Below are positions 24,518 through 40,053 of a stretch of DNA of 64,000 bases, in pieces (the stretch's first letter is position 1; every line of letters starts with the position of its first letter). A program made the position numbers and the translations under genes. Source of the stretch: Peptococcaceae bacterium BRH_c4b (lineage in GTDB: Bacteria > Bacillota > Desulfotomaculia > Desulfotomaculales > Desulfocucumaceae); the NCBI GenBank assembly GCA_000961595.1, contig LADO01000036.1, positions 1 to 64,000 on the forward strand, written 5' to 3'. The notes beneath the pieces were generated by a model, which made no database searches, was not told where the DNA came from, and saw only the letters and a program-made list of their open reading frames with translations.

Positions 24518-24539
24518 TGGAATGCTCCTTTGCCTCAAC

Positions 24540-25565
24540 CTATTGGCGATAACCATTCGGATGGGTGCTATGCCAGCGCCACGCACTGGAAAGTATGGTT
24601 TCTAGATTGCTGTATCTTGGCTCCCAGCACACAACTCCTTTAATAGCCTCACTATCAGCTACCAGGATGGGCGGATCTCCCTCTCTGCGCTCTTCGTATG
24701 CCACTGAAAGTTTATGCCCGGTAAGTGCTTCTGATTTTTCGATAATCTCCAAAACTGAACTCCCCTTTCCTGTGCCTACATTGAAAATACCGCTTTGCAT
24801 GCTGTGTTCCAAGGCACGGAGAGCAAGAATATGAGCGTTGGCCAAATCGATAACATGTACATAATCGCGAATGCATGTACCATCGGATGTCACATAGTCT
24901 GCACCGAATACAGATAATTTTTCCCGCAGCCCGAGGGCTGTTTGCAGGACCAATGGAATGAGATGAGTCTCCGGCCCGTGGTCTTCGCCCAAACTGCCGT
25001 CCAGCGATGCGCCCGCTGCGTTGAAATAGCGGAGGGCCACCCATCTGATGCCATGAACCTTTCCCACCCACTCCAGACACTCTTCAATCATACGTTTTGA
25101 AGCGCCATATGGATTAATCGGAGCAAGCATCGTTTCTTCCCGGATGGGGATATATTTCGGAATCCCATACACAGCGGCCGTAGATGAAAAGACAACGTGT
25201 TTTACTCCTGCTTTCATTACCGCCTCGAAGAACATAAAAGACTTGACCGTATTTTCGCAAAAATACAGTTCTGGTTTTGCTAATGATTCGCTTACCTGAC
25301 TTTTGGCAGCGAAATGGATGACTGATTGTATCTGATGTTCCTTAATAATGTGTTCCACCAGTGCGGTGTCCGCAATATCACCTTCGTAAAAATGCTCTGC
25401 GCGAACCGCATCCCGGTGGCCGGTGGTCAAATTGTCCAGCACGACCACCAGAGCACCTTCTTTGATAAGCTCCTGCGCCGTATGGCTACCGATGTAGCCT
25501 GCGCCCCCTGTAACTAATACCGGTTTCATTGGACCTGCGGGAATGACTGCTTTTTTGATTTTCAT
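24540..25565 (-). CDS. galE: UDP-glucose 4-epimerase
   Basis: A 341-residue extended SDR enzyme that interconverts UDP-glucose and UDP-galactose. It has the NAD-binding VTGGAGYIGSHTAQ, the catalytic SSTAAVYG and YGASKRM (YxxxK), and the substrate-binding region DYVTSDGTCIRDYVHV. Its ATG overlaps the TGA of gtrA as ATGA, and GGGGTGA lies 9 bases upstream, so translation is probably coupled. A second ATG 12 codons in is possible; residues 1-12 are an unusual short extension. In the operon it likely supplies galactose units for surface glycosylation. Confidence 0.93.
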   Translation of the reverse strand: MKIKKAVIPAGPMKPVLVTGGAGYIGSHTAQELIKEGALVVVLDNLTTGHRDAVRAEHFYEGDIADTALVEHIIKEHQIQSVIHFAAKSQVSESLAKPELYFCENTVKSFMFFEAVMKAGVKHVVFSSTAAVYGIPKYIPIREETMLAPINPYGASKRMIEECLEWVGKVHGIRWVALRYFNAAGASLDGSLGEDHGPETHLIPLVLQTALGLREKLSVFGADYVTSDGTCIRDYVHVIDLANAHILALRALEHSMQSGIFNVGTGKGSSVLEIIEKSEALTGHKLSVAYEERREGDPPILVADSEAIKGVVCWEPRYSNLETILSSAWRWHSTHPNGYRQ

Positions 25566-25978
25566 GCAATTTCACCCCTTGTTCTTTGGTATTCTGTAAA
25601 TACCCAAAGCCGACTGCCCATATAGTTCACAGCAATGGCGGCCCCTGTGGCCATAAGCTTGCTAATCCAAAGAGCCATATGATTTGCATCGTGTAAGATG
25701 AAAAGCAGACCGGATAATACCAGCAAGGAAAGCCCGTTTACGATGATAAACCTGGCAACCTCCAGGACGTTAGCTTTGCGTGCAACCCGAAATGTCCACT
25801 TTCGATTGAGCAAGAAACTGTTCACCACACCTGCCGCATAGGAAAGCGCCTGGGCCAGCAGGTACGGCACTCCGCCCAGTGTCAGAAGAAAAAAGGCGGC
25901 AAAATCCACTGCCGTATTTCCTACCCCTACGGTACAAAAACGCAGGAACTGAATAGCCCTGTGCTTATTGTTGAACAC
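25562..25978 (-). CDS. GtrA-family membrane protein
   Basis: A 138-residue protein with four hydrophobic helices in the GtrA pattern (RFCTVGVGNTAVDFAAFFLL, then SYAAGVVNSFLLNRKWTF). GtrA proteins are thought to flip or position undecaprenyl-phosphate-linked sugars for O-antigen, teichoic-acid or wall glycosylation. It overlaps the upstream GT2 gene by 14 bases and the downstream galE by 4, showing a tightly coupled operon. Confidence 0.92.
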   Translation of the reverse strand: MFNNKHRAIQFLRFCTVGVGNTAVDFAAFFLLTLGGVPYLLAQALSYAAGVVNSFLLNRKWTFRVARKANVLEVARFIIVNGLSLLVLSGLLFILHDANHMALWISKLMATGAAIAVNYMGSRLWVFTEYQRTRGEIA

Positions 25979-26942
25979 TCCAGATCACCTCTTCCGACCT
26001 TAAATTTTTAACTTTTTGCTCGTTCCGGAGAATATATAGCGGACGGTTTTTGGTTTCATCGTAAATTCTGCCCACATACTCTCCGAGGATCCCCAAAATG
26101 ATGAGGATCACGCCGTTTAGCAACAGCAGGCAGGCAATGAGCGATGACCATCCAGCAACTGCATTGGTGGTGAATAATTTTAGGCACAAAGAAATAACCA
26201 GACAGACAAAACTTGCAAACGAGATTATAAAACCGAGATAAGTGGCCAACTTTAACGGTTTATAGGAAAATGATGTAATCCCATCCATTGAGAAGCGAAT
26301 CATTTTCTTTAGGGGGTATTTGGTTTCTCCAGCAAATCGTTCCTCCCGCACGTACTCAATGGCTGTAGAACGAAAGCCTACCCAGCTTACCAGGCCGCGG
26401 ACAAAGCGGTTTTTCTCCCGGATGCTGCACATGGCCTTACACACTTTCCGGTCTATCAGGCGGAAGTCACCTGTATCAAGCGGAATGTTTACTTCTGTCA
26501 GCGCGCTAAGGGTGCGATAGAACAAAGAGGCGGTCCATCTTTTAAACAGCGTCTCCCCTTTCCGTTTAGAGCGCCGGGCATAGACTACTTCATATCCTTC
26601 TTGCCATTTTTCAATCATTTGCGGGATCAACTCGGGCGGGTCCTGCAAATCGGCATCTAAAATCACAATGGCGTCCCCGCAAGCAAAGTCCATGCCCGCG
26701 GTAATCGCTATTTGATGCCCGAAATTGCGCGAGAAATCAAGCAGCTTCACACACTCGTCAGATTCAGCAAATCCTTCTATTATTTCTGCCGTCCGGTCCC
26801 GGCTTCCATCGTTAACAAACAGCAGTTCATACGGCTCACCGATAGCTTCCATGACCCGTGTCAGCCGGCGATAGGTTTCATGTACAACGGCCTCTTCGTT
26901 ATAGACCGGAATGATAATGGTATAACGGACGTTTCTTTTCAT
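25965..26942 (-). CDS. GT2 family lipid-linked glycosyltransferase (DPM1/GtrB/YkcC-like)
   Basis: A 325-residue enzyme with a GT-A fold: TIIIPVYNEEAVV at the N-terminus, VNDGSRDRT, the metal-binding VILDADLQDPPE and the acceptor region DTGDFRLIDRKV. Two C-terminal membrane helices (about 235-300) follow. Members transfer a sugar from a nucleotide donor to polyprenyl phosphate on the cytoplasmic side. Together with GtrA and the GT39 protein this gives a complete make-flip-transfer set. It starts 69 bases after the GT39 stop. Confidence 0.92.
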   Translation of the reverse strand: MKRNVRYTIIIPVYNEEAVVHETYRRLTRVMEAIGEPYELLFVNDGSRDRTAEIIEGFAESDECVKLLDFSRNFGHQIAITAGMDFACGDAIVILDADLQDPPELIPQMIEKWQEGYEVVYARRSKRKGETLFKRWTASLFYRTLSALTEVNIPLDTGDFRLIDRKVCKAMCSIREKNRFVRGLVSWVGFRSTAIEYVREERFAGETKYPLKKMIRFSMDGITSFSYKPLKLATYLGFIISFASFVCLVISLCLKLFTTNAVAGWSSLIACLLLLNGVILIILGILGEYVGRIYDETKNRPLYILRNEQKVKNLRSEEVIWSVQQ

Positions 26943-27011: not shown

Positions 27012-29180
27012 TTAGTTGATTTTGTATAACGTCCTGTCGTTCCCCATTCCCATAGGACCACCTTGAGGGCCAGCCTGGGCTGAGTTCGTTTGCCACTCTT
27101 CTTGAGGAACCTCCGTGCTGTGTATACGTATCCAATCCATCACTTCATTGTTGTCTCTGCCTCCGAAGCCCGAAGGAATCAAGAAATATTTCACTTCTTT
27201 GTTGGCCACCATTTGTTTCAATTTTTCCACCGTTAGAATGGGATCGGACCCACTAAACCCGCCCATGGCCATGACGGCTTTACCGGTTTCAATGATATAA
27301 GGTGCGGCCGTATTGGAATCTGTGGTCGCAAAAAGGTACTTTTCCCCCGTATTATTCCTGGTTACATATTCAAGTAGTTTATCATTGATACTGGTGTTCG
27401 GCCCGCCCCTCATACCCGGTCTTTGGCCGGACAGTCCCAGGCCGGGCGGTGCCTGCGCGGATGATCCTTGACTGGGTGGTGCCTGCACAGATGATCCTCG
27501 GCCGGAAGGCCCAGCCTGCGGCAGCATGTTGTTGTCGCCATACAGCAGCGGAGTAGCTGCCCAGTACATTGGCCCCATCAGCAGTACCAGCATTCCGGCT
27601 ATTGCGGCCATCGAAGACAACTTCTCCTTCTTTGCAGCCAGGATCAATACAATCGATAGCGCGATGCCTGCGGCACCGATGCCGATGGACCATCCAATGT
27701 CAATTTGCTTTTGATAGGGCTGCAGTACATACAGTTCAAAAACTGTGGCAGTCAGAAGACCCGCCGGCAGCAGCCACCTTTTCCAGCCTTCTTTGTCGCG
27801 ATATTGGTTCCAAAGCTCCACCCAGCCTGCTCCTGCCAGCGCCGCAATCGATGGGGCAAGCATGATCAGGTAATAGTGATGGAAGAAGCCCGCTACACTG
27901 AAAAACACCATCGACGGGAGCAGCCAGGCCAGCCAGAACAAGGTCTCATTTTGTTTGTCAGTAAGCGGCTTTCTAAAGCGGATGCCTGCCAGCAAACCAA
28001 CGCAGGCGAAAGCTACAAAGGGCAGCAGCCAGCTGGCTTGCCCGGAAAGTTCGGATTGGAACAGCCGCAGCGGACCTGCCTGACCGGTACCGAACGCACC
28101 GCCGCCCCCTTGTCCTGGCGGTCTGCCCCCGCCGGACATTGGGCCTGATCCTCCATTACCGTCCAGATCGAAGCCTCCCGGCCTGTTGTTTCCATCCGTC
28201 GGCATTTGCTGCTGGCTGGGCATGTTGTTCCCTTGCTGCATTTGCTGTGGGTTGGGCATGTTGTTCCCATCCTGCTGCATCTGTTGCTGATCAGGCATTG
28301 TTCCCCCGTCCTGCTGAGTTTGCCGTTGGTTCGGCGCTGCGCCGGGACCGGGACCCCCGCCTCCCCTGTTCCCGGTAAGGCGAGATATACCGTTATAGCC
28401 GAAGGCAAGCTCCAAAACGGAATTCGTTTTACTGCCTCCCATGTATGGCCGGTTTTCTTGAGGAATCGTATCGACGATCACCGCCCAGGACGCGGATACT
28501 CCGGCCATGATCACTGTTGCCGCCGCAATGATGGCCAGTTTCTTTTTCCACTCGCCCTTGAAAGCAAGCAGGTAAAACAGGTAAAAAGCCGGTACCACCA
28601 TGTATGCTTGCAGCATCTTCATATTAAAGCCCACACCGATCATGGCAAAGGCTCCAAGAACCCAGGACGGCTTCTGATTACGAATCCCCCGAAACAACAT
28701 CCAGGTGGCCAGGAGAAGCGTAAATACCAAAAGGCTGTCGATATTATTAGTCCGGCTCACCGCAACAGCGATGGGTGTACATGCCATAACCAGGCTCGCT
28801 AACCGGGCAGCCGTTTTACCGAAAGCCGGCTTGACCAGAACATACATCAGCAAAACGGAACCGACACCGGCCAAAGCCTGCGGGAGAATCACGCTCCATC
28901 CGTGCACCCCGAAGATATCGGCGAATACCGTCTGGACCCAAAACGCGACCGGCGGTTTATCCACCGTAACGTATCCGCCCGGATCAAAAGAAGCGTAGAA
29001 AAAATTGTGCCAGTTCTGCAGCATACTGGTTACGGCTGCAGTGTAATAGGCGTTAGCGTACTGATTGTTCCAGATGTTATAAATATTTAAAAAAGCGGAT
29101 AGTAAGGCAATACCTATCAGGATCATATCGAAACGTTGGCCTTGCTTCGGTCTCACCGTCATCTTCCCCCTCTGATTCAT
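27012..29180 (-). CDS. GT39 (ArnT/PMT/YkcB-like) glycosyltransferase with Gln/Met/Gly-rich insert
   Basis: A 722-residue membrane protein. Multiple helices flank the PMT-type first loop (ASFDPGGYVTVDKPPVAFWV, with the acidic residue used in catalysis). An extracytoplasmic low-complexity insert at about 270-370 alternates QQMQQDGNN-type repeats with glycine runs. A C-terminal domain (about 610-720) contains YLFATTDSNTAAPYIIETG. YkcB-type proteins transfer sugars from polyprenyl-phosphate donors to envelope acceptors. The Met/Gln-rich loop could bind metal, but this is inference. A start at 29162 (after GGGGG) competes with 29180. Its promoter region carries the six-repeat 11-bp element at 29255-29314, so it heads a five-gene operon. 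Confidence 0.88.
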   Translation of the reverse strand: MNQRGKMTVRPKQGQRFDMILIGIALLSAFLNIYNIWNNQYANAYYTAAVTSMLQNWHNFFYASFDPGGYVTVDKPPVAFWVQTVFADIFGVHGWSVILPQALAGVGSVLLMYVLVKPAFGKTAARLASLVMACTPIAVAVSRTNNIDSLLVFTLLLATWMLFRGIRNQKPSWVLGAFAMIGVGFNMKMLQAYMVVPAFYLFYLLAFKGEWKKKLAIIAAATVIMAGVSASWAVIVDTIPQENRPYMGGSKTNSVLELAFGYNGISRLTGNRGGGGPGPGAAPNQRQTQQDGGTMPDQQQMQQDGNNMPNPQQMQQGNNMPSQQQMPTDGNNRPGGFDLDGNGGSGPMSGGGRPPGQGGGGAFGTGQAGPLRLFQSELSGQASWLLPFVAFACVGLLAGIRFRKPLTDKQNETLFWLAWLLPSMVFFSVAGFFHHYYLIMLAPSIAALAGAGWVELWNQYRDKEGWKRWLLPAGLLTATVFELYVLQPYQKQIDIGWSIGIGAAGIALSIVLILAAKKEKLSSMAAIAGMLVLLMGPMYWAATPLLYGDNNMLPQAGPSGRGSSVQAPPSQGSSAQAPPGLGLSGQRPGMRGGPNTSINDKLLEYVTRNNTGEKYLFATTDSNTAAPYIIETGKAVMAMGGFSGSDPILTVEKLKQMVANKEVKYFLIPSGFGGRDNNEVMDWIRIHSTEVPQEEWQTNSAQAGPQGGPMGMGNDRTLYKIN

Positions 29181-29254
29181 CTTGTTTTGTTGCCGCTATG
29201 GGCAGTCCCCCGTGATGTCCGGGCCTCATATTATTACAATCATATCCCCTTTAG

Positions 29255-29314
29255 CTGAATTGTCCCTTAACTGCAACTGAGCATTAATTGAGTAATGGCT
29301 GAATATATGCTGAA
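29255..29314 (-). promoter_or_regulatory. Six-copy 11-bp-phased CTGAA repeat, operon 1
   Basis: CTGAA, CTTAA, CTGAG, TTGAG, CTGAA and CTGAA begin at 29255, 29266, 29277, 29288, 29299 and 29310, exactly 11 bp apart. This matches an OmpR/PhoB-type tandem binding array. It lies 75-95 bases upstream of the GT39 start, and near-identical arrays precede two other operons (35259, 39864) and, in shorter form, the response-regulator gene (38531). Confidence 0.8.
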
Positions 29315-29332
29315 AACCGCAGCAGATAAATT

Positions 29333-29398
29333 AGGGACATTCCTTCTCGAATTTGTATAGTAGTAGGAGTTTTAGATACTACAAGAAGGCGTGTCCCT
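29333..29398. repeat. Long imperfect inverted repeat, copy 1
   Basis: AGGGACATTCCTTCT at one end is matched by AGAAGGCGTGTCCCT at the other, separated by about 36 bases that also tend to fold back. A second copy is at 39937-40002 and a degenerate one at 38447-38491. It sits just upstream of the 11-bp array in copies 1 and 2. Confidence 0.75.
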
Positions 29399-29425
29399 CT
29401 CCTCTAAGGCGCGCGTATAACAAAA

Positions 29426-29464
29426 ACGGCATTCATACACAGGTAAACCGTGCAGAAATGCCGT
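29426..29464 (-). terminator. Hairpin repeat (ACGGCATTC), copy 1
   Basis: ACGGCATTC and GAAATGCCGT arms enclose a 20-base loop. The same hairpin follows the intact kinase (36110-36148) and the Cache-GGDEF gene (40015-40053), so it looks like a shared terminator. Confidence 0.6.
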
Positions 29465-29506
29465 TAATAAAGTTAGGCCAATATGAACTTTAAGAAAGCA
29501 TTCAGG

Positions 29507-29713
29507 TTATCCGGAAAGCCGGTAATGAAATGTACAGCCTTCTCCCTCTTGACATACAACGCTAATGGTTCCTTTTATCTGTTCTACCTGCCCCCGGGTT
29601 AATCCGGTCAGTCCAATTATTTGATTAACTGGAACCAAGAAAGTCTGGCCATTGCAATCAACAACAAAATAGCCCCCGGAACACCAAATTAACCGGGAGG
29701 CTAGGAAAGTCGA
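29507..29713 (-). pseudogene. Chimeric remnant carrying a kinase tail
   Basis: An open frame runs from the stop of the 163-residue gene to a TAA at 29507. Its end reads CQEGEGCTFHYRLSG, a close copy of the last residues (ESQEGEGCTFHIWLPE) of the histidine kinase at 36190. The flanking TGAACTTTAAGAAA and hairpin are also shared. Its first part (GGYFVVDCNGQTFLVPVNQI) is unrelated and unrecognised. It seems to be the scar of a recombination or duplication involving the kinase 3' end. No convincing start codon is present. Confidence 0.5.
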
Positions 29714-30205
29714 TTACCTATCAAGACGTTTTAGAATTTGAATGAGTTTTTGGTCAAACGTACAACTCGATGGGTTAATCTTTGAATCTTGCTCGAGTCT
29801 TGCTTCATACTCTGCGATCCAATCTCTCCTGCCTTCATGACTGGCTGGAGTTAAATAGAAACTAGCTGGTTGAGGAAATTTGCTTAGATCAATATTAGAT
29901 TTAATATCTTGAAGAGCTTTATCATAATCAAAAGTCAAAATTGCATGTTCCCCCCCAGATATTTGTCCTGCCTCGTAAAGTTTTAAGGACATTTCACAAA
30001 GCTCATCGAATGTAGCATTTCGGATATCATATTCTCTGGCCAATTCTCCCCATATATCCGAAGTCTGATCCGGTTTATACTCCACATCGGTTTTTTTCTG
30101 GGTGACCGATAAGTTGAACAAATTTTTTTCAGTACTTTTTGTGCTTGTGGTGCTTGTTTTTACATACGAAGATGGCTGATAACTGCCTATTCCAAAGACG
30201 TTCAT
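29714..30205 (-). CDS. Hypothetical protein (163 aa)
   Basis: I do not recognise the family. The protein is soluble and acidic to neutral, opening MNVFGIGSYQPSSYVKTSTT with a Ser/Thr-rich, probably flexible first 45 residues. A helical region follows (ATFDELCEMSLKLYEAGQIS), and the C-terminus is rich in charged residues (WIAEYEARLEQDSKINPSS). There is no signal peptide. A perfect GGAGG lies 7 bases before the ATG, so it is surely translated. The short serine-rich opening resembles that of the 157-residue protein at 35628 (MNISSISSASS). It is upstream of the chimeric remnant and divergent from the tyrosinase-like gene. Confidence 0.7.
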   Translation of the reverse strand: MNVFGIGSYQPSSYVKTSTTSTKSTEKNLFNLSVTQKKTDVEYKPDQTSDIWGELAREYDIRNATFDELCEMSLKLYEAGQISGGEHAILTFDYDKALQDIKSNIDLSKFPQPASFYLTPASHEGRRDWIAEYEARLEQDSKINPSSCTFDQKLIQILKRLDR

Positions 30206-30374
30206 GCATTTACCTCCGATTTTATTCTACCAAATAATATTGTTAATGAACCCAACAGATCACGGATTTAGGTTAAGTCTATATTACCATAATAAGTTAG
30301 TCATAATATGTTGTAATTTGTCATATATACAAATATATTTTTCTTTAGGAGGGCATAAGACCAAGTTTAGGAGC

Positions 30375-30458
30375 ATGGCTGACATCCACCTCATGGGCGG
30401 TCAGGACGAAGGAATTAATAGCAAAGACCCTGTGAGATATGGAAGGATTGCGGCCTGA
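30375..30458 (+). other. Short open frame in a 420-base gap
   Basis: AGGAG directly precedes an ATG opening 27 codons (MADIHLMGGQDEGINSKD at the start). The frame continues after a TGA with protein-like residues. It may be a relic of a longer gene. The rest of 30206-30625 is AT-rich and shows nothing else. Confidence 0.15.
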
Positions 30459-30625
30459 GGACAAGTGGTTACCATAGGCCAAAATATGGAACTTTTACGC
30501 TTGTCCTATCATATATATTCATGAATAGATTAAATGCCCATGATGTGGTTTGTTTAAACAAATGTGAAAATATAAGATTGAGTGAGCATCTTAAAGAATA
30601 TTAAAGATTATAGAGGAAGGTTAAA

Positions 30626-31156
30626 ATGCATAGACCTAACCTTAATGATTTACCTGAAAATGAAAGAGCTTTATTAGCAAGGCAAATTCAGAGATACGTT
30701 ACACCAGATATAGTTAACATACACTGGAATGCAGTCTTATCTGGTGCCCATAACGACCCGGCGATGTTCTTAACCTTTCACAGAGACTTAATTAGTGGTT
30801 TAGAAAACTTTTTGTCAGACCAGGGATATACGCAATTTGTGCCTCTACCGGCATGGAACCCAAGAAATCCAATTCCTGAGGAATTTAATATCCCGAGTAC
30901 TGGCCCCGGGAGACTACGGAATCTAAACCCAGATGTAAATTTCTCGCCAGAGTTTGACCAGGAAAATTTTAATAACTTCGGAACTGAAGAAGAGCTGGGA
31001 GAAGCCCTTATGACCAGACATAACCTGGTTCATGCTAGAATTGGCGGCATAATGAATAATACCCGGCTTGCACCGTTAGCTCCTATTTTTTGGCCATTTC
31101 ATGGCTTCATTGATGATATATGGCGGGATTGGCAAGAGTTGCAATTGAAAATTTGA
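30626..31156 (+). CDS. Small tyrosinase-like type-3 copper protein
   Basis: A 176-residue protein resembling the central domain of tyrosinases. The CuA-like half has His33, His42 and His52 (NIHWN, GAHND, FLTFHRDL). The CuB half has His132 and His136 in HNLVHARIGG and His159 in PIFWPFHGFIDDIW, all in the expected order and spacing for CuB. The H42-H52 gap is one residue longer than usual. All six copper ligands appear present, so it may bind a dicopper centre and act as a phenol oxidase or oxygen-binding protein. No signal peptide is seen. GAGGAAGG precedes the ATG. Its presence in an apparent anaerobe is odd. It stands alone, convergent with the PepSY-helix gene. Confidence 0.75.
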   Translation: MHRPNLNDLPENERALLARQIQRYVTPDIVNIHWNAVLSGAHNDPAMFLTFHRDLISGLENFLSDQGYTQFVPLPAWNPRNPIPEEFNIPSTGPGRLRNLNPDVNFSPEFDQENFNNFGTEEELGEALMTRHNLVHARIGGIMNNTRLAPLAPIFWPFHGFIDDIWRDWQELQLKI

Positions 31157-31185
31157 TTATTCTTATTTACAATCTCTCCTTAATT

Positions 31186-31599
31186 TTACTCGCGTCTATT
31201 TTCAGTAAAAAACTGTGCTTTTAATATTTTAACAGATAATATAATCCCTGTTGTTGATAGCACAATTAAACCAATAGCTGCTATATCAAGAAAAACAGAA
31301 ACGTCTGTATTGTTTATTCTTCCTTGATGCAAATTCCTGATAAATCCCATCAGATTATTTTTCTTGTAAACATTTCCAGAATCTCCACCTTGTGGCGCCA
31401 GCCCCTCTACAGGTGCTACTACTCTAATAGAATCACCTATTTTTGCTTTTTCAGACTGCACACTTTGCTCTGTTGGTGGATGATTTGCACCGATAAGCCA
31501 CGGTTCAATCATAATAAGTCCTGTAATTGCCTCTATCAGTATTAAAAGAGAAGTAAACAAACCAATCCATAAGTGTAATTGACGACATTTTTTAGTCAT
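31186..31599 (-). CDS. PepSY-associated transmembrane-helix protein (short)
   Basis: A 137-residue protein with two membrane helices (about 8-33 and 102-125) flanking an extracytoplasmic loop. RQLHLWIGLFTSLLILIEAITGL is the typical PepSY_TM opening, described here by its first residues. Larger family members act in iron-siderophore reduction or envelope redox chemistry; this one has only the outer helices. It follows the MacB permease by 58 bases and is probably the last gene of the efflux operon. The ribosome binding site (AGGAGG-like, TTTAGGAGGAAATAATTA) is good. Confidence 0.75.
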   Translation of the reverse strand: MTKKCRQLHLWIGLFTSLLILIEAITGLIMIEPWLIGANHPPTEQSVQSEKAKIGDSIRVVAPVEGLAPQGGDSGNVYKKNNLMGFIRNLHQGRINNTDVSVFLDIAAIGLIVLSTTGIILSVKILKAQFFTENRRE

Positions 31600-31657
31600 T
31601 AATTATTTCCTCCTAAAGGGCGCAATTTGGTTGTATTCAAAACAATCACAAATACAT

Positions 31658-32878
31658 TTACTTTTCAAAACGCAGCGCTTCGATGGGGTCCAGTGCTGCA
31701 GCTTGTTTGGCAGGATAATATCCGAAAAATATCCCAACGGCCGCGGAAAAGCCTGCTGACAGTAAAATTGAGTATAAGGTTACTGAAGTCGACCAGCCGC
31801 CTATAACGGACAATAGCTTTGACCCCGTCACCCCCAGCAGTATTCCGGCGATTCCTCCCAACATACAGAGCACCAGGGCTTCCACCAGAAACTGGTTGCG
31901 GATGTTGCTGTCAGTGGCGCCTACCGCCATGCGCAGACCAATTTCCCTGGTTCTTTCCGTAACAGATACCAGCATAATATTCATTATCCCTATTCCACCC
32001 ACCAGCAGGGAAACTGCGGCAACACTGGCCAGCATCATGGTCATCACTGCCGAGGTGCTTTCCACTGCTTCAATCAGCTCCGCCTGATTTCTAACGTTAA
32101 AATCATCTTCTTCATTATTGTGTATATCATGCCTTTCCCTGAGCAAGCTCTCAATGCTGCTCTCTATGTAATCCATACTTTCCTGGGATTCCGCCTGCAC
32201 GTTGATCCGGCTGACATATTTTTGCCCCAGCATTTTTCTCTGAGCCGTGGTCACCGGGATATATACAACATCATCCTGATCCTGTCCCATCATGGATGCT
32301 CCCTTGGAAGCCAGCACCCCCACCACTGTATATGACAGCTTGTTAATACGGATTTTGGTTCCTATGGGGTCTGTGCCTTCCGGGTAAAGGTTATCCACCA
32401 CGGTCTGGCCCAACACCGCCACCGGGGTAGCACCACTAACATCCTCATCCGCAAAGAAAGTGCCTGATGCAGTAGGTAAGTCTCTGATCTTCTGCAGTTC
32501 CGGCGTGGTTCCGCTGTATTCGGAAGTCCAGGTCTCGCTGCCATATGCTATAGTGGCGCTGCCGCCTACAGCGGGAGCCACGTTGGCCACCATGTCAAGC
32601 TTCGCTATAGCTTTCGCATCATCCAGGGTAAGGGTATTAACGCTCCCCCCCGCTCCCCGAACTGGTCCCTGCTGCTCAGCTCCGGGCATCACCGTCAATA
32701 GGTTTGAGCCCATGCTGGAAATCTGGTCGGTTATTCTTTTACCAGCCCCCTGCCCCACGGAAATCATTATAATAACTGCAGAGACACCGATTATTATGCC
32801 CAGCATGGTCAGGGCGGAGCGCAGTTTGTTTGCCTTAAGGCCGTTTAGGGCCACTTCCAGATTGCTTTTTAAATTCAT
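31658..32878 (-). CDS. MacB-type ABC transporter permease
   Basis: A 406-residue permease with one N-terminal membrane helix (ALTMLGIIIGVSAVIIMISVGQG), a ~230-residue extracytoplasmic MacB periplasmic-core domain, and three C-terminal helices of the FtsX fold. The conserved VTERTREIGLRMAVGA motif that couples to the ATPase is present. In Gram-positives such systems export peptides or drugs with an HlyD-like partner. The start overlaps the ATPase stop by 4 bases, so translation is coupled. Confidence 0.93.
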   Translation of the reverse strand: MNLKSNLEVALNGLKANKLRSALTMLGIIIGVSAVIIMISVGQGAGKRITDQISSMGSNLLTVMPGAEQQGPVRGAGGSVNTLTLDDAKAIAKLDMVANVAPAVGGSATIAYGSETWTSEYSGTTPELQKIRDLPTASGTFFADEDVSGATPVAVLGQTVVDNLYPEGTDPIGTKIRINKLSYTVVGVLASKGASMMGQDQDDVVYIPVTTAQRKMLGQKYVSRINVQAESQESMDYIESSIESLLRERHDIHNNEEDDFNVRNQAELIEAVESTSAVMTMMLASVAAVSLLVGGIGIMNIMLVSVTERTREIGLRMAVGATDSNIRNQFLVEALVLCMLGGIAGILLGVTGSKLLSVIGGWSTSVTLYSILLSAGFSAAVGIFFGYYPAKQAAALDPIEALRFEK

Positions 32879-33627
32879 GCAACTACCTCCGCATCATCCA
32901 CCGGATAGGCCGCCAGTTCCTCTACTGCGCTCCTGGGATTGAGAACTTGTTTGTCACTGACTATACGCCCGTCCTTTATTCTTATAATCCTGCCGCAGTG
33001 CAGGGCTATATCCTCTTCATGGGTAACCATTATCACCGTAATCCCCTTTTCCCAGTTCAGCCGCTGGATAACAGACATTATTTCCATGCTGGTTCTTGAA
33101 TCCAGGGCGCCGGTGGGCTCGTCCGCAAGGATCATTGAAGGATTGTTCACCAGTGCCCTGGCTATGGCCACCCTTTGCTGCTGGCCGCCGGACATCTGGC
33201 TGGGAAGGTGATTGAGGTAAGCAGAAAGTCCTACCCAGCCAAGGGCTTCCTTGGCCCTATCTTCCATTTCGCTTTTCTCGACGCCGCCATAAATCATCGG
33301 CAGCTGAACATTCGCCTTTACGGTCGACCTGCCCAACAGATTAAATCCCTGAAATACAAAGCCTAATTTTTTATTTCTAATGGAAGCCAGCTGTTTTTTA
33401 TCCAGTTGCGAAACATCTTGACCTTCAAGGTAATATGCTCCTGCGGTGGGTTTGTCCAGACAGCCAATTATATTCAGCAGTGTACTTTTACCGGAACCTG
33501 AAGAGCCCATTACCGCCAGCATCTCTCCTTCCGGCACGGTCAAGTCGATGCCCCTTACCGCATGAACCAGGGTTCCCCCCAGTTTATAGACCTTTTTTAT
33601 TCCTTCCAGCTTAATTGTGGTTTTCAA
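32875..33627 (-). CDS. MacB/LolD-type ABC transporter ATP-binding protein
   Basis: A 250-residue ATPase with Walker A (GSSGSGKST), signature (MSGGQQQRVAIARAL), Walker B (MILADEPTGALD) and a switch histidine (MVTHEED), all intact. It energises the permease encoded next and overlaps it by 4 bases. It begins 37 bases after the HlyD-like gene, and the three form the usual adaptor-ATPase-permease efflux set. Confidence 0.95.
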   Translation of the reverse strand: MKTTIKLEGIKKVYKLGGTLVHAVRGIDLTVPEGEMLAVMGSSGSGKSTLLNIIGCLDKPTAGAYYLEGQDVSQLDKKQLASIRNKKLGFVFQGFNLLGRSTVKANVQLPMIYGGVEKSEMEDRAKEALGWVGLSAYLNHLPSQMSGGQQQRVAIARALVNNPSMILADEPTGALDSRTSMEIMSVIQRLNWEKGITVIMVTHEEDIALHCGRIIRIKDGRIVSDKQVLNPRSAVEELAAYPVDDAEVVA

Positions 33628-33664
33628 TACCCCGCCACTCCCCCGTACTGTTCAATTATAAAAC

Positions 33665-35104
33665 TCAGTTCCCGCCGGGCGGCGGCCCCCCGGGTCCACC
33701 GAGCATGCCCTGGCCACTTTTTGAGTTATCCTTGGTGCCTGTAGAGCTGGATGATGTTGCCGCAGTCCGGCTCGTGGAACCAATAATAACTGTCTCCCCT
33801 TCTTTTAGCCCGCTAATCACTTCATAATTGGTCAAGTCGGACAATCCCAGTTCCACCTGCCTGGGCTCGGGAGAACCTGATTTACCTGACACTAAAACCA
33901 TGGCGCGCTGCCCTTGTGCACTTTCCGTCGTTACTGAGGCATTTTTTCCAGCTGTAGCATCCATTTGTTTAGTTGCGTAACTTTCTGCATAGGTTACGGC
34001 ACCCTTGGGAATGGTCAGGACATCTTCGCTCTGCTCCACTATGATGGTCACATCGGCGGGCATGCCTGCTTTCAATTCAGTGTAATTATTCTCCAGTTGT
34101 ATAATCACCTCATAAATCTGGACGTTAGACTGCGTGGTGGCCGTGGGGGAGATGCTGCTCACCTTCCCGACAAATGTTTTTTCTGGGAAGGAGTTTACCG
34201 TGAATTCCACCTTTTGACCCACCTGGGTCTTGCCGATATCCCCTTCGTTTACCTGGGCTTCTACCTGTAGTGCTTCAGAAATCACTTCCATGAAGCCGCC
34301 GCCGCTTGTGTTGTTGTTATTGGCTGTGGCCCGCTGGCCCTCCGCCCCACTATTCGAGCTGACGATGCCATTAATGGGGCTTACCAACTTGGCATCGGAA
34401 AGCGACCTTTTGGCTACCTGCAACTGTGCCCTGGCGTTTACCACCTGTGCGGCCGCGGAAGCAATATCTTCCGGGCGGTTCCCTTTTTGCAAGCTTCTTA
34501 ATGACGCCCTGGCCTGTTTTAAACTGGCTTCCGCATTGTCAAAATCCGCTTTTACCTGCTCAAGTTCCGACTGGGATAGCGCCCCGGCCTGGTATAAAGT
34601 CTGATTTCTTTCCATAGTGGCTTTGGCAAGATTATAACTTACCTGAGCCATGCTTACTTTTGCCTCGGCCTCTTCCAATTCTTCCTGTGTGGCGCCGTTC
34701 CTCTCCAGCGCAAGCTTCGCGGACTGGCTGTCAAAGTTTGCCTGTGCTTGCATAACATCCGCTTCCAGGTTATCGGTTTCCAACTCGGCCAGAAGTTGGC
34801 CCGGTTCTACTTTGTCGCCGACTTTCACATAAATCTTTTTGACTATTTCGGCGTCTTTAAAGCTCATACTAATTGTTTCGACCGGTTCTACCGTTCCGCT
34901 GGCGGATATGGTGTTGGTTATGTTGCCGCGTTTCACGGTATTGGTCAGGTAATCTCCAGATGCCCTCGAGGGTCCGCTCAGGATAAAATAAAGGGCTAGC
35001 GAGATCCCAGCGGCCGCTATAATACCAAACATGAGCTTTTTCTTTTTTACGTGGCTGGTTAAAGAGCTCAATCTCATAATGAATGATTTGTTTTCGTTCT
35101 GCAA
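33665..35104 (-). CDS. HlyD/MacA-family efflux adaptor
   Basis: A 479-residue membrane-fusion protein. One membrane helix lies near residues 24-42. Next come a lipoyl half (GTVEPVETISMSFKDAEIV), a long coiled-coil hairpin (about 100-205, ALSQSELEQVKADFDNAEAS), the second lipoyl half, beta-barrel and membrane-proximal domains. The C-terminus is a low-complexity Gly/Pro/Ser tail (GQGMLGGPGGPPPGGN). The start is a TTG at 35104, eight bases after a perfect AGGAGG. It heads the adaptor-ATPase-permease-PepSY operon. The six-repeat array at 35259-35318, about 155-215 bases upstream, probably controls it. Confidence 0.92.
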   Translation of the reverse strand: MQNENKSFIMRLSSLTSHVKKKKLMFGIIAAAGISLALYFILSGPSRASGDYLTNTVKRGNITNTISASGTVEPVETISMSFKDAEIVKKIYVKVGDKVEPGQLLAELETDNLEADVMQAQANFDSQSAKLALERNGATQEELEEAEAKVSMAQVSYNLAKATMERNQTLYQAGALSQSELEQVKADFDNAEASLKQARASLRSLQKGNRPEDIASAAAQVVNARAQLQVAKRSLSDAKLVSPINGIVSSNSGAEGQRATANNNNTSGGGFMEVISEALQVEAQVNEGDIGKTQVGQKVEFTVNSFPEKTFVGKVSSISPTATTQSNVQIYEVIIQLENNYTELKAGMPADVTIIVEQSEDVLTIPKGAVTYAESYATKQMDATAGKNASVTTESAQGQRAMVLVSGKSGSPEPRQVELGLSDLTNYEVISGLKEGETVIIGSTSRTAATSSSSTGTKDNSKSGQGMLGGPGGPPPGGN

Positions 35105-35258
35105 TTTGGTGTCCTCCTATTAATAACACGGAAATTTGTCAGCGCAGCAAACCCATCTTTAACTTTAGCACCAGGAATGTTAGATATAATGAAGCCATGA
35201 TGAATAAAAAATGAAATGAACATCCGGGCTTTTACTCTTACAATAATATCCCCTTTTG

Positions 35259-35318
35259 CTGAATTATCCCTTAACGGTAACTGAACATTGATTGAATAAT
35301 GGCTGAATATATGCTGAA
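35259..35318 (-). promoter_or_regulatory. Six-copy 11-bp-phased CTGAA repeat, operon 2
   Basis: CTGAA, CTTAA, CTGAA, TTGAA, CTGAA and CTGAA begin at 35259, 35270, 35281, 35292, 35303 and 35314, exactly 11 bp apart. The order of variants matches operon 1 and operon 3. The region 35105-35258 holds the rest of the leader and no supported gene. Confidence 0.8.
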
Positions 35319-35442
35319 AAAAGCAGCATAATTGTTGCTTCAATTTTGCCACAGGTTTGCCACAGTATTGCTATATTTTAAAAAGGCGTATCCGCCGATA
35401 ATTATAATAGGTAAATAAATCACTTTTACAGTTCACGAAGGG

Positions 35443-35592
35443 ATGCCAATAAATGGAGGTGATATTTGTCGACAGAATTCAAACCCACAGATGCAGGAGA
35501 ATGCAAGACAAAATAACAATGAAGCTATTCCTGACAAATTGGGAAATGAAATGCATCGGGATATGGTAACCATTATTCTTCAGAACTATTAA
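35443..35592 (+). CDS. Small hypothetical protein (49 aa)
   Basis: A 49-codon frame, too short for usual listing, opens MPINGGDICRQNSNPQMQEN and is rich in Asn and Gln. GAAGGG lies directly before the ATG, which is too close for ideal spacing. It stops 35 bases before the 157-residue gene and has the same Asn/Gln-rich composition, suggesting a two-gene unit. Family unknown. The whole unit diverges from the HlyD operon. Confidence 0.35.
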   Translation: MPINGGDICRQNSNPQMQENARQNNNEAIPDKLGNEMHRDMVTIILQNY

Positions 35593-35627
35593 TATCTTGA
35601 GTAGATTAAAAGGAGTGTGGTGTTAAT

Positions 35628-36101
35628 ATGAATATTTCATCAATTTCATCTGCCTCAAGTAGCGCTTATTCTACTGTGAATAATAATAATGAAGTAGCAC
35701 AGCTTAAAAAAGAAAAGGCAGATCTTCAGAAGGAACTACAAAAAGTTCTACAAAGTAAGGATGATGAAGAAACAAAACAGCAGAAAATTCAACAACTACA
35801 ACTGCAAATACAGCAAATTGATTCACAAATTCAAGGTAATAGCACTACTAGTAACGTGAACACGCAAAACACCGATGACAGAAAAGGACCTGAACAATTC
35901 TTTACTGATGCAGCAAGTGTTTTAGGCATATCAGACGACGACCTCAAATCCGAATTACAATCAGGCAATGACTTACAAACAATTATTGAAGAACAAGGTT
36001 TGACTATGGGAGATTTCCAGCAACAGATGACTACACTTTTAAATAGTCATCAATCTTCTAACGTTGATCAAATAGGATACTTTGTTGATGAAGCGATTTA
36101 A
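35628..36101 (+). CDS. Coiled-coil hypothetical protein with LGI-DL-EL motif
   Basis: A 157-residue protein with an AAAGGAG ribosome binding site. Residues 1-22 are Ser/Asn-rich. Residues 23-72 form a strong coiled coil of Lys, Gln and Glu, as in FlxA-like proteins. The C-terminal ~60 residues hold SVLGISDDDLKSELQSGNDL then QTIIEEQGLTMGDF. The same small helical motif occurs in the membrane-anchored protein at 39172-39708 (ILGITAEDLQTELKEGKTL). No signal peptide is present, so it may be cytoplasmic or leave by another route. Function unknown. It ends 8 bases before a bidirectional hairpin. Confidence 0.7.
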   Translation: MNISSISSASSSAYSTVNNNNEVAQLKKEKADLQKELQKVLQSKDDEETKQQKIQQLQLQIQQIDSQIQGNSTTSNVNTQNTDDRKGPEQFFTDAASVLGISDDDLKSELQSGNDLQTIIEEQGLTMGDFQQQMTTLLNSHQSSNVDQIGYFVDEAI

Positions 36102-36109
36102 TTATGAGT

Positions 36110-36148
36110 ACGGCATTCATACACAGTCAAACCGCGCATGAATGCCGT
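36110..36148. terminator. Bidirectional hairpin terminator (ACGGCATTC repeat), copy 2
   Basis: ACGGCATTCAT pairs perfectly with ATGAATGCCGT across a 17-base loop, between the convergent 157-residue gene and the histidine kinase. It can end both transcripts. Confidence 0.75.
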
Positions 36149-36189
36149 CATTGAAGTTGGGCTGATATGAACTTTAAGAAACATTCAGG

Positions 36190-37743
36190 TTATTCGGGAA
36201 GCCAGATATGAAATGTACAGCCTTCTCCCTCTTGACTTTCAACGTTAATGGTTCCCCCATGAGCGGTTACAATGGATTTGGAGATCGCTAAGCCTAAACC
36301 GGCCCCGCCATATTTGCGCGTCCGGGAGGAATCACTGCGGTAAAAACGATCAAAGATGTGGTGGAGATGGTTATCGCTGATCCCTGGTCCGTTATCTTGA
36401 ACGGACAATTGCACACCGCTGTTCTTCCCAGATAATGAAATCTGTATATGACCATTTTCAGGATCTGTCTGCTGCACCGCATTATAAAACAGATTCAAAA
36501 TCACCTGTTTCATTTTATCTGCATCATATTTGCATTTCATGTTTGGTTCGATCGATAAGTCAAGCCTTCTGTCGCCGGCCAGAATGCGCAGCTGCGGTTC
36601 CATATCCAGGATAACGGTATCCAGCAAGCCTTCCTTAAGTTCAATATGAGGTGTGCGGTCAAGTTTGGCCAGGAGAAGAAGATCATGTACCAATATTGTG
36701 AGGCGTTCCGATTCGCCATGCATGCTTTTTAACGCTTTATGCAGTTGTTCCGGCTGATTGGCCGCGCCGCGGAGCAGTACCTCCAAAAATCCGTGAATGG
36801 AGGTTAACGGCGTACGAAGCTCATGAGAGGCGTCCGCTATAAAGCGGCGCATCTGTTCCTTGGTTTCTCTTTCTGCTGCAAAGGAAGCTTCCAGTCGCTC
36901 CAGCATGCCGTTAAAGGATTCCGCCAAACGATCGATTTCCATCTGTCCTTGCCGGGTTGGGAAACGCCTTGCTAAATTACCCGCATCGATTTGTTCCGCA
37001 GTATCCACCATATTGAATAAGGGAACCAACGTTCTTTTAAGTATCGGTAAAAAGCAAAACAATCCAAACAGCATGGCCACGAGGGAAAGGAACAAAAAAG
37101 TGAGCAGTTGACGAATAAGCAGCTCTTTGAGCGGGCCTGTCAAAGTACTTATTTGAACGACGCCAAGCACCTCTCCGCGATCAAAAACCGGTTGTAATAC
37201 CAATAATTGTTCCGCTCTCCCGGCGTCAACTATTTTGTAGTCCAGCCCTGGCTTTTTCTTTACATCAAAATACCCTGGCTTATCCAATCTCGGAGGTTTT
37301 ATGCTGCCGGACCCATTTTCTCCAGCATCATCAATAACTTTGTTGCCCGGCCCCGGTTTTTTCTTCATTACATCCAAATACTTTTGGGTATCCAATCTTG
37401 GAGTATTTATGTTGCCGGGCACATTTGACAATGCGAAATAATTTCCCTTCGCATCAATAAATGCCAAGCTTGCCCCAGGAATAAAAAAAATCGGTGGTTG
37501 CAAATCGCCATTTTCCGGGATTGTGGCGATATGCTGCCAAGCATCCCGTGGAATCGACATAATCTGTGTCTGAAGACTGTCAGCTCTATTTCTGTAAAGA
37601 ACCTCCCGCATAAAAGCATATTGAAACAGGCCAATAAGCAAGAGCAAAACGGCAAGGATTAGCAGTGAGCGGGATAACAGTTGAATCTTAAGTGAGTTAG
37701 GAGCAAAAAAAGATCTAATTCCAATGCTTTTTCTTTGGTTCAT
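36190..37743 (-). CDS. OmpR-system sensor histidine kinase with duplicated sensor segment
   Basis: A 517-residue kinase. A membrane helix (about 23-42), an extracytoplasmic sensor (about 45-215), a second helix, HAMP, HisKA (phosphohistidine in [16 protein letters not shown]) and HATPase with GAGLGLAISKSIVTAHGG are all present. The sensor contains an imperfect tandem duplication: PRLDTQKYLDVMKKKPGPG and PRLDKPGYFDVKKKPGLD, each followed by a V-I-D-A-G-like stretch. Its ATG overlaps the response-regulator stop (ATGA), so the two are coupled. The ligand is unknown. The copy of its tail at 29507 suggests past recombination. Confidence 0.93.
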   Translation of the reverse strand: MNQRKSIGIRSFFAPNSLKIQLLSRSLLILAVLLLLIGLFQYAFMREVLYRNRADSLQTQIMSIPRDAWQHIATIPENGDLQPPIFFIPGASLAFIDAKGNYFALSNVPGNINTPRLDTQKYLDVMKKKPGPGNKVIDDAGENGSGSIKPPRLDKPGYFDVKKKPGLDYKIVDAGRAEQLLVLQPVFDRGEVLGVVQISTLTGPLKELLIRQLLTFLFLSLVAMLFGLFCFLPILKRTLVPLFNMVDTAEQIDAGNLARRFPTRQGQMEIDRLAESFNGMLERLEASFAAERETKEQMRRFIADASHELRTPLTSIHGFLEVLLRGAANQPEQLHKALKSMHGESERLTILVHDLLLLAKLDRTPHIELKEGLLDTVILDMEPQLRILAGDRRLDLSIEPNMKCKYDADKMKQVILNLFYNAVQQTDPENGHIQISLSGKNSGVQLSVQDNGPGISDNHLHHIFDRFYRSDSSRTRKYGGAGLGLAISKSIVTAHGGTINVESQEGEGCTFHIWLPE

Positions 37744-38423
37744 GGCAGATCAACCCGGTATCCTGATCCGCGCAAGGTTCGTATTAATTTATGGTCTTTG
37801 TCGTGTAATTTTTCCCGCAACGAACGAATATACACCTCGACAATATTTTCCTCCCCACCGAAATCATAGCCCCATACTTTATCCAAAATTGTCGTTTTAC
37901 TTAAAACCAGCCCGTGATTGAGAACTACAAATTTAAGGAGCTCATATTCTGTTGGAGACAGCTCCAAAACCCGATCTTCGAGCCTGATTTCTTTGCGGCG
38001 GTCATCAATGTGAAACGGGCCAATAACGACTTCCCCAAATAAGTTCGGAAATTGATTTCGGATTCTGGCATATATCCTGGCGAGCAGTTCCTCAAAGCTA
38101 AACGGTTTTACCATGTAATCATCGGCCCCAATGGTGAGACCCTTCACCCGATCATCCACCTCATCCTTGGCCGTCAGCATGATCACCGCTACATTCTCCG
38201 TTTTTTTGAGCATCCGGCATACTTCGAAACCGTCCATTCCGGGCATCATGACATCTAGTATAGCCACATGGGGCTGGAATTGCCTCAACAGTGTAATGGC
38301 TGTCATGCCATCCTGGGCGGTCTGTACTTCAAATCCTTCATTTTGCAGACCGAGCTCTAAAAACTGTAGTATATTCGGTTCATCGTCCACTAATAATATT
38401 TTGATTCCCTTTAATTGTTGCAT
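37740..38423 (-). CDS. OmpR/PhoB-family response regulator
   Basis: About 227 residues. The receiver has ILLVDDEPN, the phospho-Asp in VAILDVMMPGMDGF, LTAKDEVDDR and VKPFSFEELLAR. The winged-helix output follows with ELSPTEYELLKFV, TILDKVWGYDFGGEE and RGSGYRVDLP. The frame is open to 38585, but the ATG at 38423 starts the receiver exactly and removes a non-conserved extension. OmpR-family proteins bind direct repeats spaced one helical turn (10-11 bp). A five-copy 11-bp CTGAA array lies upstream of its own gene (38531-38579) and six-copy arrays precede three operons, so it is the prime candidate regulator of the block. Confidence 0.93.
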   Translation of the reverse strand: MQQLKGIKILLVDDEPNILQFLELGLQNEGFEVQTAQDGMTAITLLRQFQPHVAILDVMMPGMDGFEVCRMLKKTENVAVIMLTAKDEVDDRVKGLTIGADDYMVKPFSFEELLARIYARIRNQFPNLFGEVVIGPFHIDDRRKEIRLEDRVLELSPTEYELLKFVVLNHGLVLSKTTILDKVWGYDFGGEENIVEVYIRSLREKLHDKDHKLIRTLRGSGYRVDLP

Positions 38424-38446
38424 TCCTGACCTACCACCCTTATATC

Positions 38447-38491
38447 GGGGACATTCCATCGGGGACATTCCTCCGATGGAGGTGTGTTCCC
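38447..38491. repeat. Degenerate copy of the GGGACATTCC inverted repeat
   Basis: GGGGACATTCC occurs twice (38447, 38461) and is followed by GGAGGTGTGTTCCC in inverted orientation. It lies between the response-regulator start and its repeat array. Confidence 0.55.
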
Positions 38492-38530
38492 TTTCCGCTG
38501 ATGGTGTGTCCGTCATTATGTTTATATTAT

Positions 38531-38579
38531 CTGGATCATAACTGAAACCGTACTGAATGAAAACTGAAAATTTGTTGAA
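38531..38579 (-). promoter_or_regulatory. Five-copy 11-bp-phased CTGAA repeat upstream of response regulator
   Basis: CTGGA, CTGAA, CTGAA, CTGAA and TTGAA begin at 38531, 38542, 38553, 38564 and 38575, again exactly 11 bp apart. It suggests autoregulation. The spacer sequences differ from the operon arrays, so the phase is not explained by simple duplication of one promoter. Confidence 0.75.
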
Positions 38580-38603
38580 TACCAATAGTTTCCATGATTC
38601 GAG

Positions 38604-39283
38604 TCAGTGAGTTTGAATTATCGGCAACTCAATTATAAATAAAGCGCCTGACGCAGAATTTTCAGCAGTAATTTTTCCATTGTGCTTTTTAATAACATTC
38701 TTACTAATAGCCAATCCAAGCCCGGAATTACCTTTTTTACCCTTATAGAACCTTTCAAATATATATGGAAGATCATTGATGTCAAAGCCTGGACCATCAT
38801 CCGAAATAGTGAGTAGTGCTTTGTTATCCTCAACAATCTCCAAGGAAAGCTCTACAATACTGTCTGCATATCTTATACAGTTGCTGATTATATTCATAAT
38901 TGCACGAGAAAGCTTTTCTTCATCTGCATATATTTCTATCCTTTCATTAAGCCTATTAATGGTGATTTCTGTGTTATTTTTGATGGCATCCCATTTATGC
39001 GTTCAATACAATTACTGATTAATTCATTATAATTAAAAATGTCAAACTGATAATTTTCCTCTACTGCATCAAGGCGTGATAAGTATAGTATATCTTCTAC
39101 CAGATGAGTCATACGCTTTGTTTCATCGATTATAATATTAACAGCAGTGCTGCTATCAACAACATCATATTTTATGCCCTCGGCGTAACTTTGAATAGAC
39201 ATAAGAGGCGTTCTGAATTCATGGGATGCGTTTTGCAGGAAAGTTTTCTGTGCTTTATCGTATGTTTCAAGCTTTTTAGACAT
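38604..39283 (-). pseudogene. Frameshifted, N-truncated sensor histidine kinase
   Basis: The 5' part reads TYDKAQKTFLQNASHEFRTP to EDILYLSRLDAVEE, a HisKA domain with its phosphohistidine. A frameshift near 39000 must be crossed to continue as INRLNERIEIYADEEKLSRA and ISNCIRYADS, then the HATPase with SDDGPGFDI and GNSGLGLAISKNVIKKHNG, ending at 38604. The sensor, membrane helices and HAMP region are missing: the sequence is joined directly, out of frame, to the small membrane-protein gene upstream (near 39290). It is a dead kinase created by deletion plus frameshift. Confidence 0.75.
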
Positions 39284-39708
39284 AATATTAGGTGGTGGTG
39301 GTGGTATTCTAAGGTTTTTCCTTCCTTTAACTCGGTTTGCAGATCCTCGGCAGTTATGCCAAGAATCTGGGCTATGTCATCTGGCCGGAACATCATCGGT
39401 GGCCCACCCCCTGGCTTATCGCCCTTATTTGGCTGTTTGGCTTGATTATTTGACTGCTGGGCTTGAACAGTAGGAACTGACCCCTTCTTCACGGTCTCAT
39501 CGCCAGCCTGGTTAATGGTGTTGTTCGTGGCATCCGACTGTTCTGTCTGATCGATACCCTCATAGGTGGCTGGCTCGGAAGGTACCGGTTGTTGCGTTAT
39601 ATCGGTTAGGCTGGCATTCTTCTTGGCCATCACCACTCCCACACCCACCAGAGCCACGACCAAAACAGTTGCCAGGCTAAAAATCAGCAACTTCTTTTTG
39701 CTCATCAT
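39172..39708 (-). CDS. Membrane-anchored small protein with 3' end altered by deletion
   Basis: A GGAGG ribosome binding site precedes the ATG at 39708 by 6 bases. The product has an N-terminal membrane anchor (LLIFSLATVLVVALVGVGVV), a Ser/Thr/Gln-rich linker, a GGGPPMMF segment and the helical motif ILGITAEDLQTELKEGKTL also present in the protein at 35628. After GKTLEYHHHH the frame enters the kinase remnant out of phase and runs to a chance stop at 39172, adding about 45 foreign residues. The natural C-terminus is therefore lost. It is headed by the six-repeat array at 39864-39923. Confidence 0.55.
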   Translation of the reverse strand: MMSKKKLLIFSLATVLVVALVGVGVVMAKKNASLTDITQQPVPSEPATYEGIDQTEQSDATNNTINQAGDETVKKGSVPTVQAQQSNNQAKQPNKGDKPGGGPPMMFRPDDIAQILGITAEDLQTELKEGKTLEYHHHHLILCLKSLKHTIKHRKLSCKTHPMNSERLLCLFKVTPRA

Positions 39709-39863
39709 TTTCACCTCCACTATCAGTAAATACCCACCAGAACGGCCACCAAATTGTACATAGCACCTGGACATCTTTCAAAGTATCAAACACCTCCCTT
39801 TATAAAAATTCATCCCGCATCTTCCTGTTGAATGACTCGACTCTCCAATAATAACCACTCCAA

Positions 39864-39923
39864 CTGAATTTTTCCTTAACGGTAACTGAACGTTGATTGA
39901 GTAGTGGCTGAATATATGCTGAA
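39864..39923 (-). promoter_or_regulatory. Six-copy 11-bp-phased CTGAA repeat, operon 3
   Basis: CTGAA, CTTAA, CTGAA, TTGAG, CTGAA and CTGAA begin at 39864, 39875, 39886, 39897, 39908 and 39919. The array is about 155 bases from the ATG at 39708, the same distance as in operon 2. Region 39709-40137 otherwise holds only the two repeat elements below. Confidence 0.8.
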
Positions 39924-39936
39924 AAAGGCATATATT

Positions 39937-40002
39937 GGGGACATTCCTTCTCTAATTTGTATAGAATTAGGAGCTTTAAATAGTTCAAGAAGGTGTGTCT
40001 CC
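39937..40002. repeat. Long imperfect inverted repeat, copy 2
   Basis: GGGGACATTCCTTCT and AGAAGGTGTGTCTCC arms around a ~36-base centre, highly similar to copy 1 at 29333-29398 including the TAATTTGTATAG interior. It lies in the same place relative to the 11-bp array. Confidence 0.75.
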
Positions 40003-40014
40003 TTTCCTTAAAAA

Positions 40015-40053
40015 ACGGCATTCATACACAGGTAAACCGTGCAAGAATGCCGT
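40015..40053 (-). terminator. Hairpin repeat (ACGGCATTC), copy 3
   Basis: ACGGCATTC and GAATGCCGT arms, located after the stop of the Cache-PAS-GGDEF gene on the minus strand, followed by the shared TGAACTTTAAG flank. Probable terminator. Confidence 0.65.

Follow-up and report, generated by a model that had tools for sequence, protein, structure and literature searches.

The 64,000-nucleotide stretch of contig LADO01000036.1 of Peptococcaceae bacterium BRH_c4b analysed here (the window) carries four arrays of short direct repeats, which are very probably the operators of a linked OmpR/PhoB-family response regulator (37740-38423). Directly visible are TTCAG-N6 direct repeats in an 11-bp phase, placed upstream of genes and followed by a -10-like hexamer at a fixed distance of 10 nt; they are also linked to orthologues of the regulator throughout Bacillota. 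A first-pass annotation of this DNA had proposed that the one-helical-turn repeats are sites of the linked OmpR-type regulator, and linkage, co-occurrence, phase and promoter geometry all back this proposal. The arrays represent a real and conserved operator family of an ordinary kind, in a conventional circuit of cell-envelope control.

Arrays 1-3 each consist of six pentamers starting 11 bp apart with the same order of variants, exactly as the first-pass annotation had described them. The operons behind these arrays all lie on the minus strand, so that the word there is TTCAG and not CTGAA, and the common order reads TTCAG TTCAG [T/C]TCAA [T/C]TCAG TTAAG TTCAG. When five units were scored across the window, the best value was 23/25 at 11 bp, while other spacings from 6 to 23 gave at most 20, the exceptional score of 20 belonging to the double period of 22; the top score in 60 simulated 64-kb windows was 19. 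These spacing controls and the simulation rule out a chance origin of the arrays. In scans of the whole 3.62-Mb genome, which were pattern matching only, every match to TTCAG-N6-TTCAG-N6-TTCAG with at most one mismatch fell within this locus. Matches outside it carry at least two mismatches and the sole convincing extra array lies on contig C44, which excludes sites scattered genome-wide. No Rfam family matched at the arrays, and an RNA element was therefore discarded as an explanation.

A fourth array was overlooked by the first-pass annotation, which listed three. It occupies 38579-38531, with the response-regulator gene on one side and a remnant of a different kinase on the other, and reads TTCAACAAATT TTCAGTTTTCA TTCAGTACGGT TTCAGTTATGA TCCAG. 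Its spacers agree with those of arrays 1-3 at just 9-10 of 24 positions, compared with 23-26 of 30 among arrays 1-3 themselves, and because the spacers differ, array 4 counts as independent evidence.

The promoter layout is equally regular. A -10-like hexamer starts exactly 10 nt past the last good unit in 81% of 115 arrays, which include related genomes and are not independent of each other; in shuffled sequence, such a hexamer was found in at most 14% at any offset. The array search was made without use of the -10, and hence the offset is not circular. Phosphorylation of the regulator by its presumed partner kinase (36190-37743) would lead to its binding to the arrays, with monomers placed head to tail, one per TTCAG unit, forming two or three tandem dimers on one helix face that load cooperatively. 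The last dimer would lie over the poor -35 region and help RNA polymerase use the -10. Array 4 would thereby raise the regulator's own expression (positive autoregulation), and the activated regulator would turn on the operons for sugar transfer (YkcB-GtrB-GtrA-GalE) and export (HlyD-MacB-PepSY_TM) as well as the small membrane protein. The likely outcome would be cell-surface remodelling together with export of harmful compounds.

The opposite sign, in which the bound regulator represses these promoters and the operons are induced by its dephosphorylation or release, is unlikely. The last unit does overlap the -35 region, a place from which repression would be possible too, but the fixed -10 distance and the lack of a good -35 hexamer favour activation. 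PhoB and PhoP promoters provide a precedent for activation with a poor -35 and a fixed -10 distance. The array before the regulator's own gene fits activation and repression alike.

Comparison across genomes links the arrays to the regulator. The regulator search returned 17 loci at 65-92% identity from Desulforamulus, Moorella, Paradesulfitobacterium, Desulfosporosinus, Thermoactinomyces, Paenibacillus, Ectobacillus, Brevibacillus and Cohnella, and the next matches reached no more than 47%. For 35 of 46 orthologues (64-94% identity, Desulfotomaculales to Paenibacillus/Bacillales), the 250 nt before the regulator start hold a TTCAG array on the same strand with a score of 17/20 or better at 11 bp. 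Spacings from 7 to 17 other than 11 bp gave zero cases upstream of the same 46, and no array stood at any of the 64 further response-regulator loci compared, of which 63 were paralogues and one was an Alicyclobacillus plasmid copy with 63% identity. The orthologue (E<1e-70) is present in 25 of 113 genomes of the window's order, and arrays of four units with at most two mismatches track it, being found in 24/25 genomes with the orthologue vs 5/88 without (Fisher p ~1e-18, uncorrected for phylogeny and too small since the genomes are related). Similarly, 6 of 21 YkcB-positive Bacillales genomes possess an orthologue (73-82% identity); five of these six orthologues have a clear array before the regulator gene, four of them scoring 20/20, and no TTCAG array was found at ykcB in Bacillales genomes without the orthologue. 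Arrays elsewhere with neither a linked OmpR-type gene nor a conserved 11-bp phase would, according to the first-pass annotation, speak against the proposal; this pattern was looked for and not found. In the window's own family, the orthologue occurs in this genome only, the other genome of the same genus (84% complete) being without it. This distribution, together with an identity of 92-94% to a different family within the order, suggests that the regulator was gained by horizontal transfer.

Several points weigh against assigning the arrays to this regulator as an activator. Eleven of the 46 orthologues are without a same-strand array close upstream, and five genomes have an array with no orthologue detected (G028, G029, G077, G089, G098). 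G029 and G089 are 84% complete, and the loci in G077 and G098 are broken, decayed-looking or rearranged; G028 is 99% complete and offers no such explanation. Contig C44 (L184, C44:96000-106896) carries a further six-unit TTCAG-like array of a different type, near 9572-9631, about 70 nt before a gene (9501-9094) for a 135-residue exported glycine-rich protein. G029 (L183), in which no orthologue was detected, holds counterparts of both, so that another regulator may use the same word. Moreover, the activating polarity is deduced from geometry, and the predicted binding from sequence comparison.

Some of these exceptions would fit a reading in which the operators mainly serve another response regulator that recognises this word, such as that of a second two-component system to which the kinase remnant at 38607-39283 belonged; the remnant is 67-72% identical to an intact second kinase beside this locus in G057 (L176), and the orthologue-less arrays of G029, G089 and G028 as well as the G029 counterpart of the C44 array point the same way. 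This explanation is nevertheless improbable, as arrays stand directly before the orthologue at most of its loci and before none of the other regulators, and co-occur with it across the order.

Part of the likeness among arrays 1-3 is historical. They lie within a duplicated segment of 92-107 bp that is 85-86% identical in gapped alignment (about 103 bp at 85% and 69% when compared ungapped). A 73-nt hairpin repeat, ACGGCATT...AATGCCGT, is found near them at 29422-29494, 36106-36178 and 40011-40083, and its copies, which probably act as intrinsic terminators, were duplicated together with the promoter segment. The 3' end of the kinase gene is also repeated near array 1, where 29572-29525 encodes GTISVVCQEGEGCTFH, 81% identical to kinase residues 497-512. 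In Desulforamulus putei and Thermoactinomyces, the regulator and kinase genes are followed by a type-B array and then by YkcB. Most simply, the regulator-kinase-array unit would have been duplicated, after which the kinase copy beside YkcB decayed to its tail. The common variant order of arrays 1-3 is partly shared descent, and therefore the functional argument must rest on other evidence. That arrays 1-3 are mere copies of one promoter segment, duplicated along with the neighbouring kinase tail and hairpin and carrying pentamers of no regulatory meaning, is hardly credible, because pure segmental duplication does not cover array 4, which lies outside it, or other genomes, in which unrelated arrays with the same phase and -10 distance precede regulator orthologues and other genes.

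The order of units within type-B arrays may itself carry information. In 30 six-unit type-B arrays, the pentamer columns hold 1.68 bits and the spacers 0.83 bits; because the selection favoured pentamers but not spacers, the spacers are seen to be conserved too. Unit 3 is mostly [T/C]TCAA and unit 5 [T/C]TAAG, also in Thermoactinomyces and Ectobacillus, although the selection of the set included unit 5, not unit 3. TTCAG is the dominant half-site, while TTAAG is found mainly at unit 5 (type B) and the outer units (type C). We tentatively raise the possibility, doubtful as it is, that the type-B array is a heterotypic ordered operator with weak units fixed at unit 3 ([T/C]TCAA) and unit 5 (TTAAG) and with spacer letters kept alike between Bacilli and Desulfotomaculales. 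The order of strong and weak units would then determine how cooperatively, and at what threshold, a single surface-remodelling switch shared by much of Bacillota responds.

Several known systems resemble this one in part. The nearest solved relative of the regulator is PhoP of Mycobacterium tuberculosis, whose tandem dimer recognises TCACAGC-N4-TCACAGC and touches the bases through N212, V213, E215, S216, Y217 and Y220 (PMC4832192). Both systems have a tandem direct repeat with an 11-bp period and a similar recognition helix (PMC4832192), but the half-site, the organisms and the targets differ. In the window regulator, the helix NIVEVYIRSLREKL retains N, V/I, E and Y at base-contacting positions and differs at those matching Ser216 and Tyr220; among orthologues, the recognition helix NIVEVYIRSLR[D/E]KL is nearly invariant. 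Six copies, which the first-pass annotation called unusually long, are not exceptional, because Escherichia coli OmpR at ompF covers F1-F3, three adjacent 20-bp sites or six half-sites over ~60 bp (PMC1489923); OmpR differs in its degenerate half-sites of ~10 bp and in regulating porins. CiaR of streptococci and BAS0540 of Bacillus anthracis are likewise OmpR-type, with 11-bp direct repeats, a site upstream of their own gene and an efflux gene target, but they use a single TTTAAG-N5-TTTAAG pair in place of four to six TTCAG units (PMC4938410). The arrays do not show the NTTAAG-N5-NTTAAG half-sites of that group, TTCAG being dominant here.

Judged by reported targets, the closest known regulon is that of YrkPQ in Bacillus subtilis. 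According to published work, YrkPQ controls ykcBC, yrkON and yrkPQR, and daptomycin-resistant mutants have an active YrkPQ regulon (PMC10128005, PMC5836110, PMC6943732). Its regulator is of the OmpR type and is reported to act on its own operon as well as on ykcBC, the counterpart of the YkcB-GtrB pair here, whereas HlyD-MacB and PepSY_TM are not in its listed regulon. The first-pass annotation had regarded the regulon as not described. The papers searched do not describe this operator family, and a search for TTCAG or Desulfotomaculum operators returned nothing relevant; however, YrkPQ control of ykcBC, counterpart of the GT39 operon, had already been reported (PMC10128005, PMC5836110, PMC6943732).

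The genes behind the arrays (Table 1) bear out the envelope-type target set first suggested. Across genomes, the classes recurring behind arrays are YkcB-GtrB-GtrA(-GalE), HlyD-MacB, PepSY_TM, small exported or membrane proteins, and the regulator-kinase operon; the YkcB-GtrB operon stands behind array 1 here and behind arrays at many orthologue loci. YkcB/YkcC-type pairs are thought to take a sugar off its lipid carrier and attach it to a polymer of the cell surface (PMC5836110). Glycosylation of lipoteichoic acid in B. subtilis was, however, reported to be unchanged under the conditions used when ykcB or ykcC was deleted. We infer surface glycosylation and export as the functional theme. The regulon was also called self-contained, which agrees with the linked arrays and operons at the locus, but one likely target lies on another contig; the proposed stress or antimicrobial response is read from gene content only.

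Table 1. Positions of the arrays, predicted promoter elements and associated genes in the window.
Feature	Position	Strand	Basis or location	Remarks
Array 1, type B, six 11-bp phased units	29255..29314	-	Upstream of YkcB operon	TTCAG TTCAG CTCAA CTCAG TTAAG TTCAG
Array 2, type B, six units	35259..35318	-	Upstream of HlyD-MacB operon	
Array 3, type B, six units	39864..39923	-	Upstream of small membrane-protein gene	
Array 4, type A, five units at 11 bp	38531..38579	-	Directly upstream of regulator gene	TTCAA TTCAG TTCAG TTCAG TCCAG
Predicted -10, array 1	29239..29244	-	10 nt past last repeat	TATGAT
Predicted -10, array 2	35243..35248	-	10 nt past last repeat	TATTAT
Predicted -10, array 3	39848..39853	-	10 nt past last repeat	TATTAT
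Predicted -10, array 4	38526..38531	-	10 nt past fourth unit	GATAAT
OmpR/PhoB-family response regulator (receiver + Trans_reg_C winged helix)	37740..38423	-	Pfam PF00072 8.9e-32, PF00486 9.1e-24	Predicted array binder
Membrane histidine kinase	36190..37743	-	HAMP, HisKA, HATPase_c	Presumed partner
Broken histidine kinase	38607-39283	-	HisKA and HATPase_c pieces	Pieces in separate frames
YkcB-like GT39/PMT_2 glycosyltransferase (PMT_2 + YkcB_C)	27012..29180	-	Pfam	
Rest of target operon 1: GT2 (GtrB-like), GtrA, GalE-like epimerase, 560-aa hydrophobic protein	22904..26942	-	Pfam	560-aa protein without Pfam match
Target operon 2: HlyD-type adaptor, MacB ATPase, MacB permease, PepSY_TM protein	31186..35104	-	Pfam	
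Small membrane protein gene	39172..39714	-	Relatives behind type-B arrays in L177, L178	3' part runs into histidine-kinase remnant

The regulator and kinase genes overlap by 4 bp and belong to the same operon. Compared with NCBIfam, the regulator matched many families and reached the cut-off of no listed family. The presumed extracellular sensor part of the kinase contains a 108-bp tandem duplication (37253-37426, minus strand; ~36 residues), with 66-nt copies 79% identical. Repeated GGGGACATTCC elements occur at 29327, 38441, 38455 and 39931, including a tandem pair close to the regulator start. At 29326-29395 and 39930-39999 they resemble imperfect inverted repeats and might be a REP-like element. 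Behind array 3, the small membrane-protein gene is truncated by the kinase remnant.

In several genomes, weaker TTCAG arrays (L221, L224, L251, L247, L248 and L250) precede genes that begin with similar short exported or membrane protein sequences, which suggests either a wider regulon or a second regulator with this word. Between the kinase and array 2, the opposite strand encodes a FlxA-like small protein (35628-36101, plus strand); in several genomes related genes follow a third array type (TTAAGG...TTCAGGCTATTTTCA), no such array being seen here. The window also contains a tyrosinase-domain protein of 176 residues (30626-31156, plus strand), which covers only the C-terminal part of the Pfam model, and a c-di-AMP riboswitch (2942-3095, plus strand; Rfam RF00379, 80.6 bits).

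The arrays supply an uncharacterised but widely distributed two-component system with a putative binding word, a promoter layout and predicted targets, all of them recognisable in any genome, and link it to sugar transfer of the lipid-carrier type and to MacB export. In addition, the order of strong and weak sites offers a natural test case for threshold setting by multi-site operators of OmpR-type regulators.

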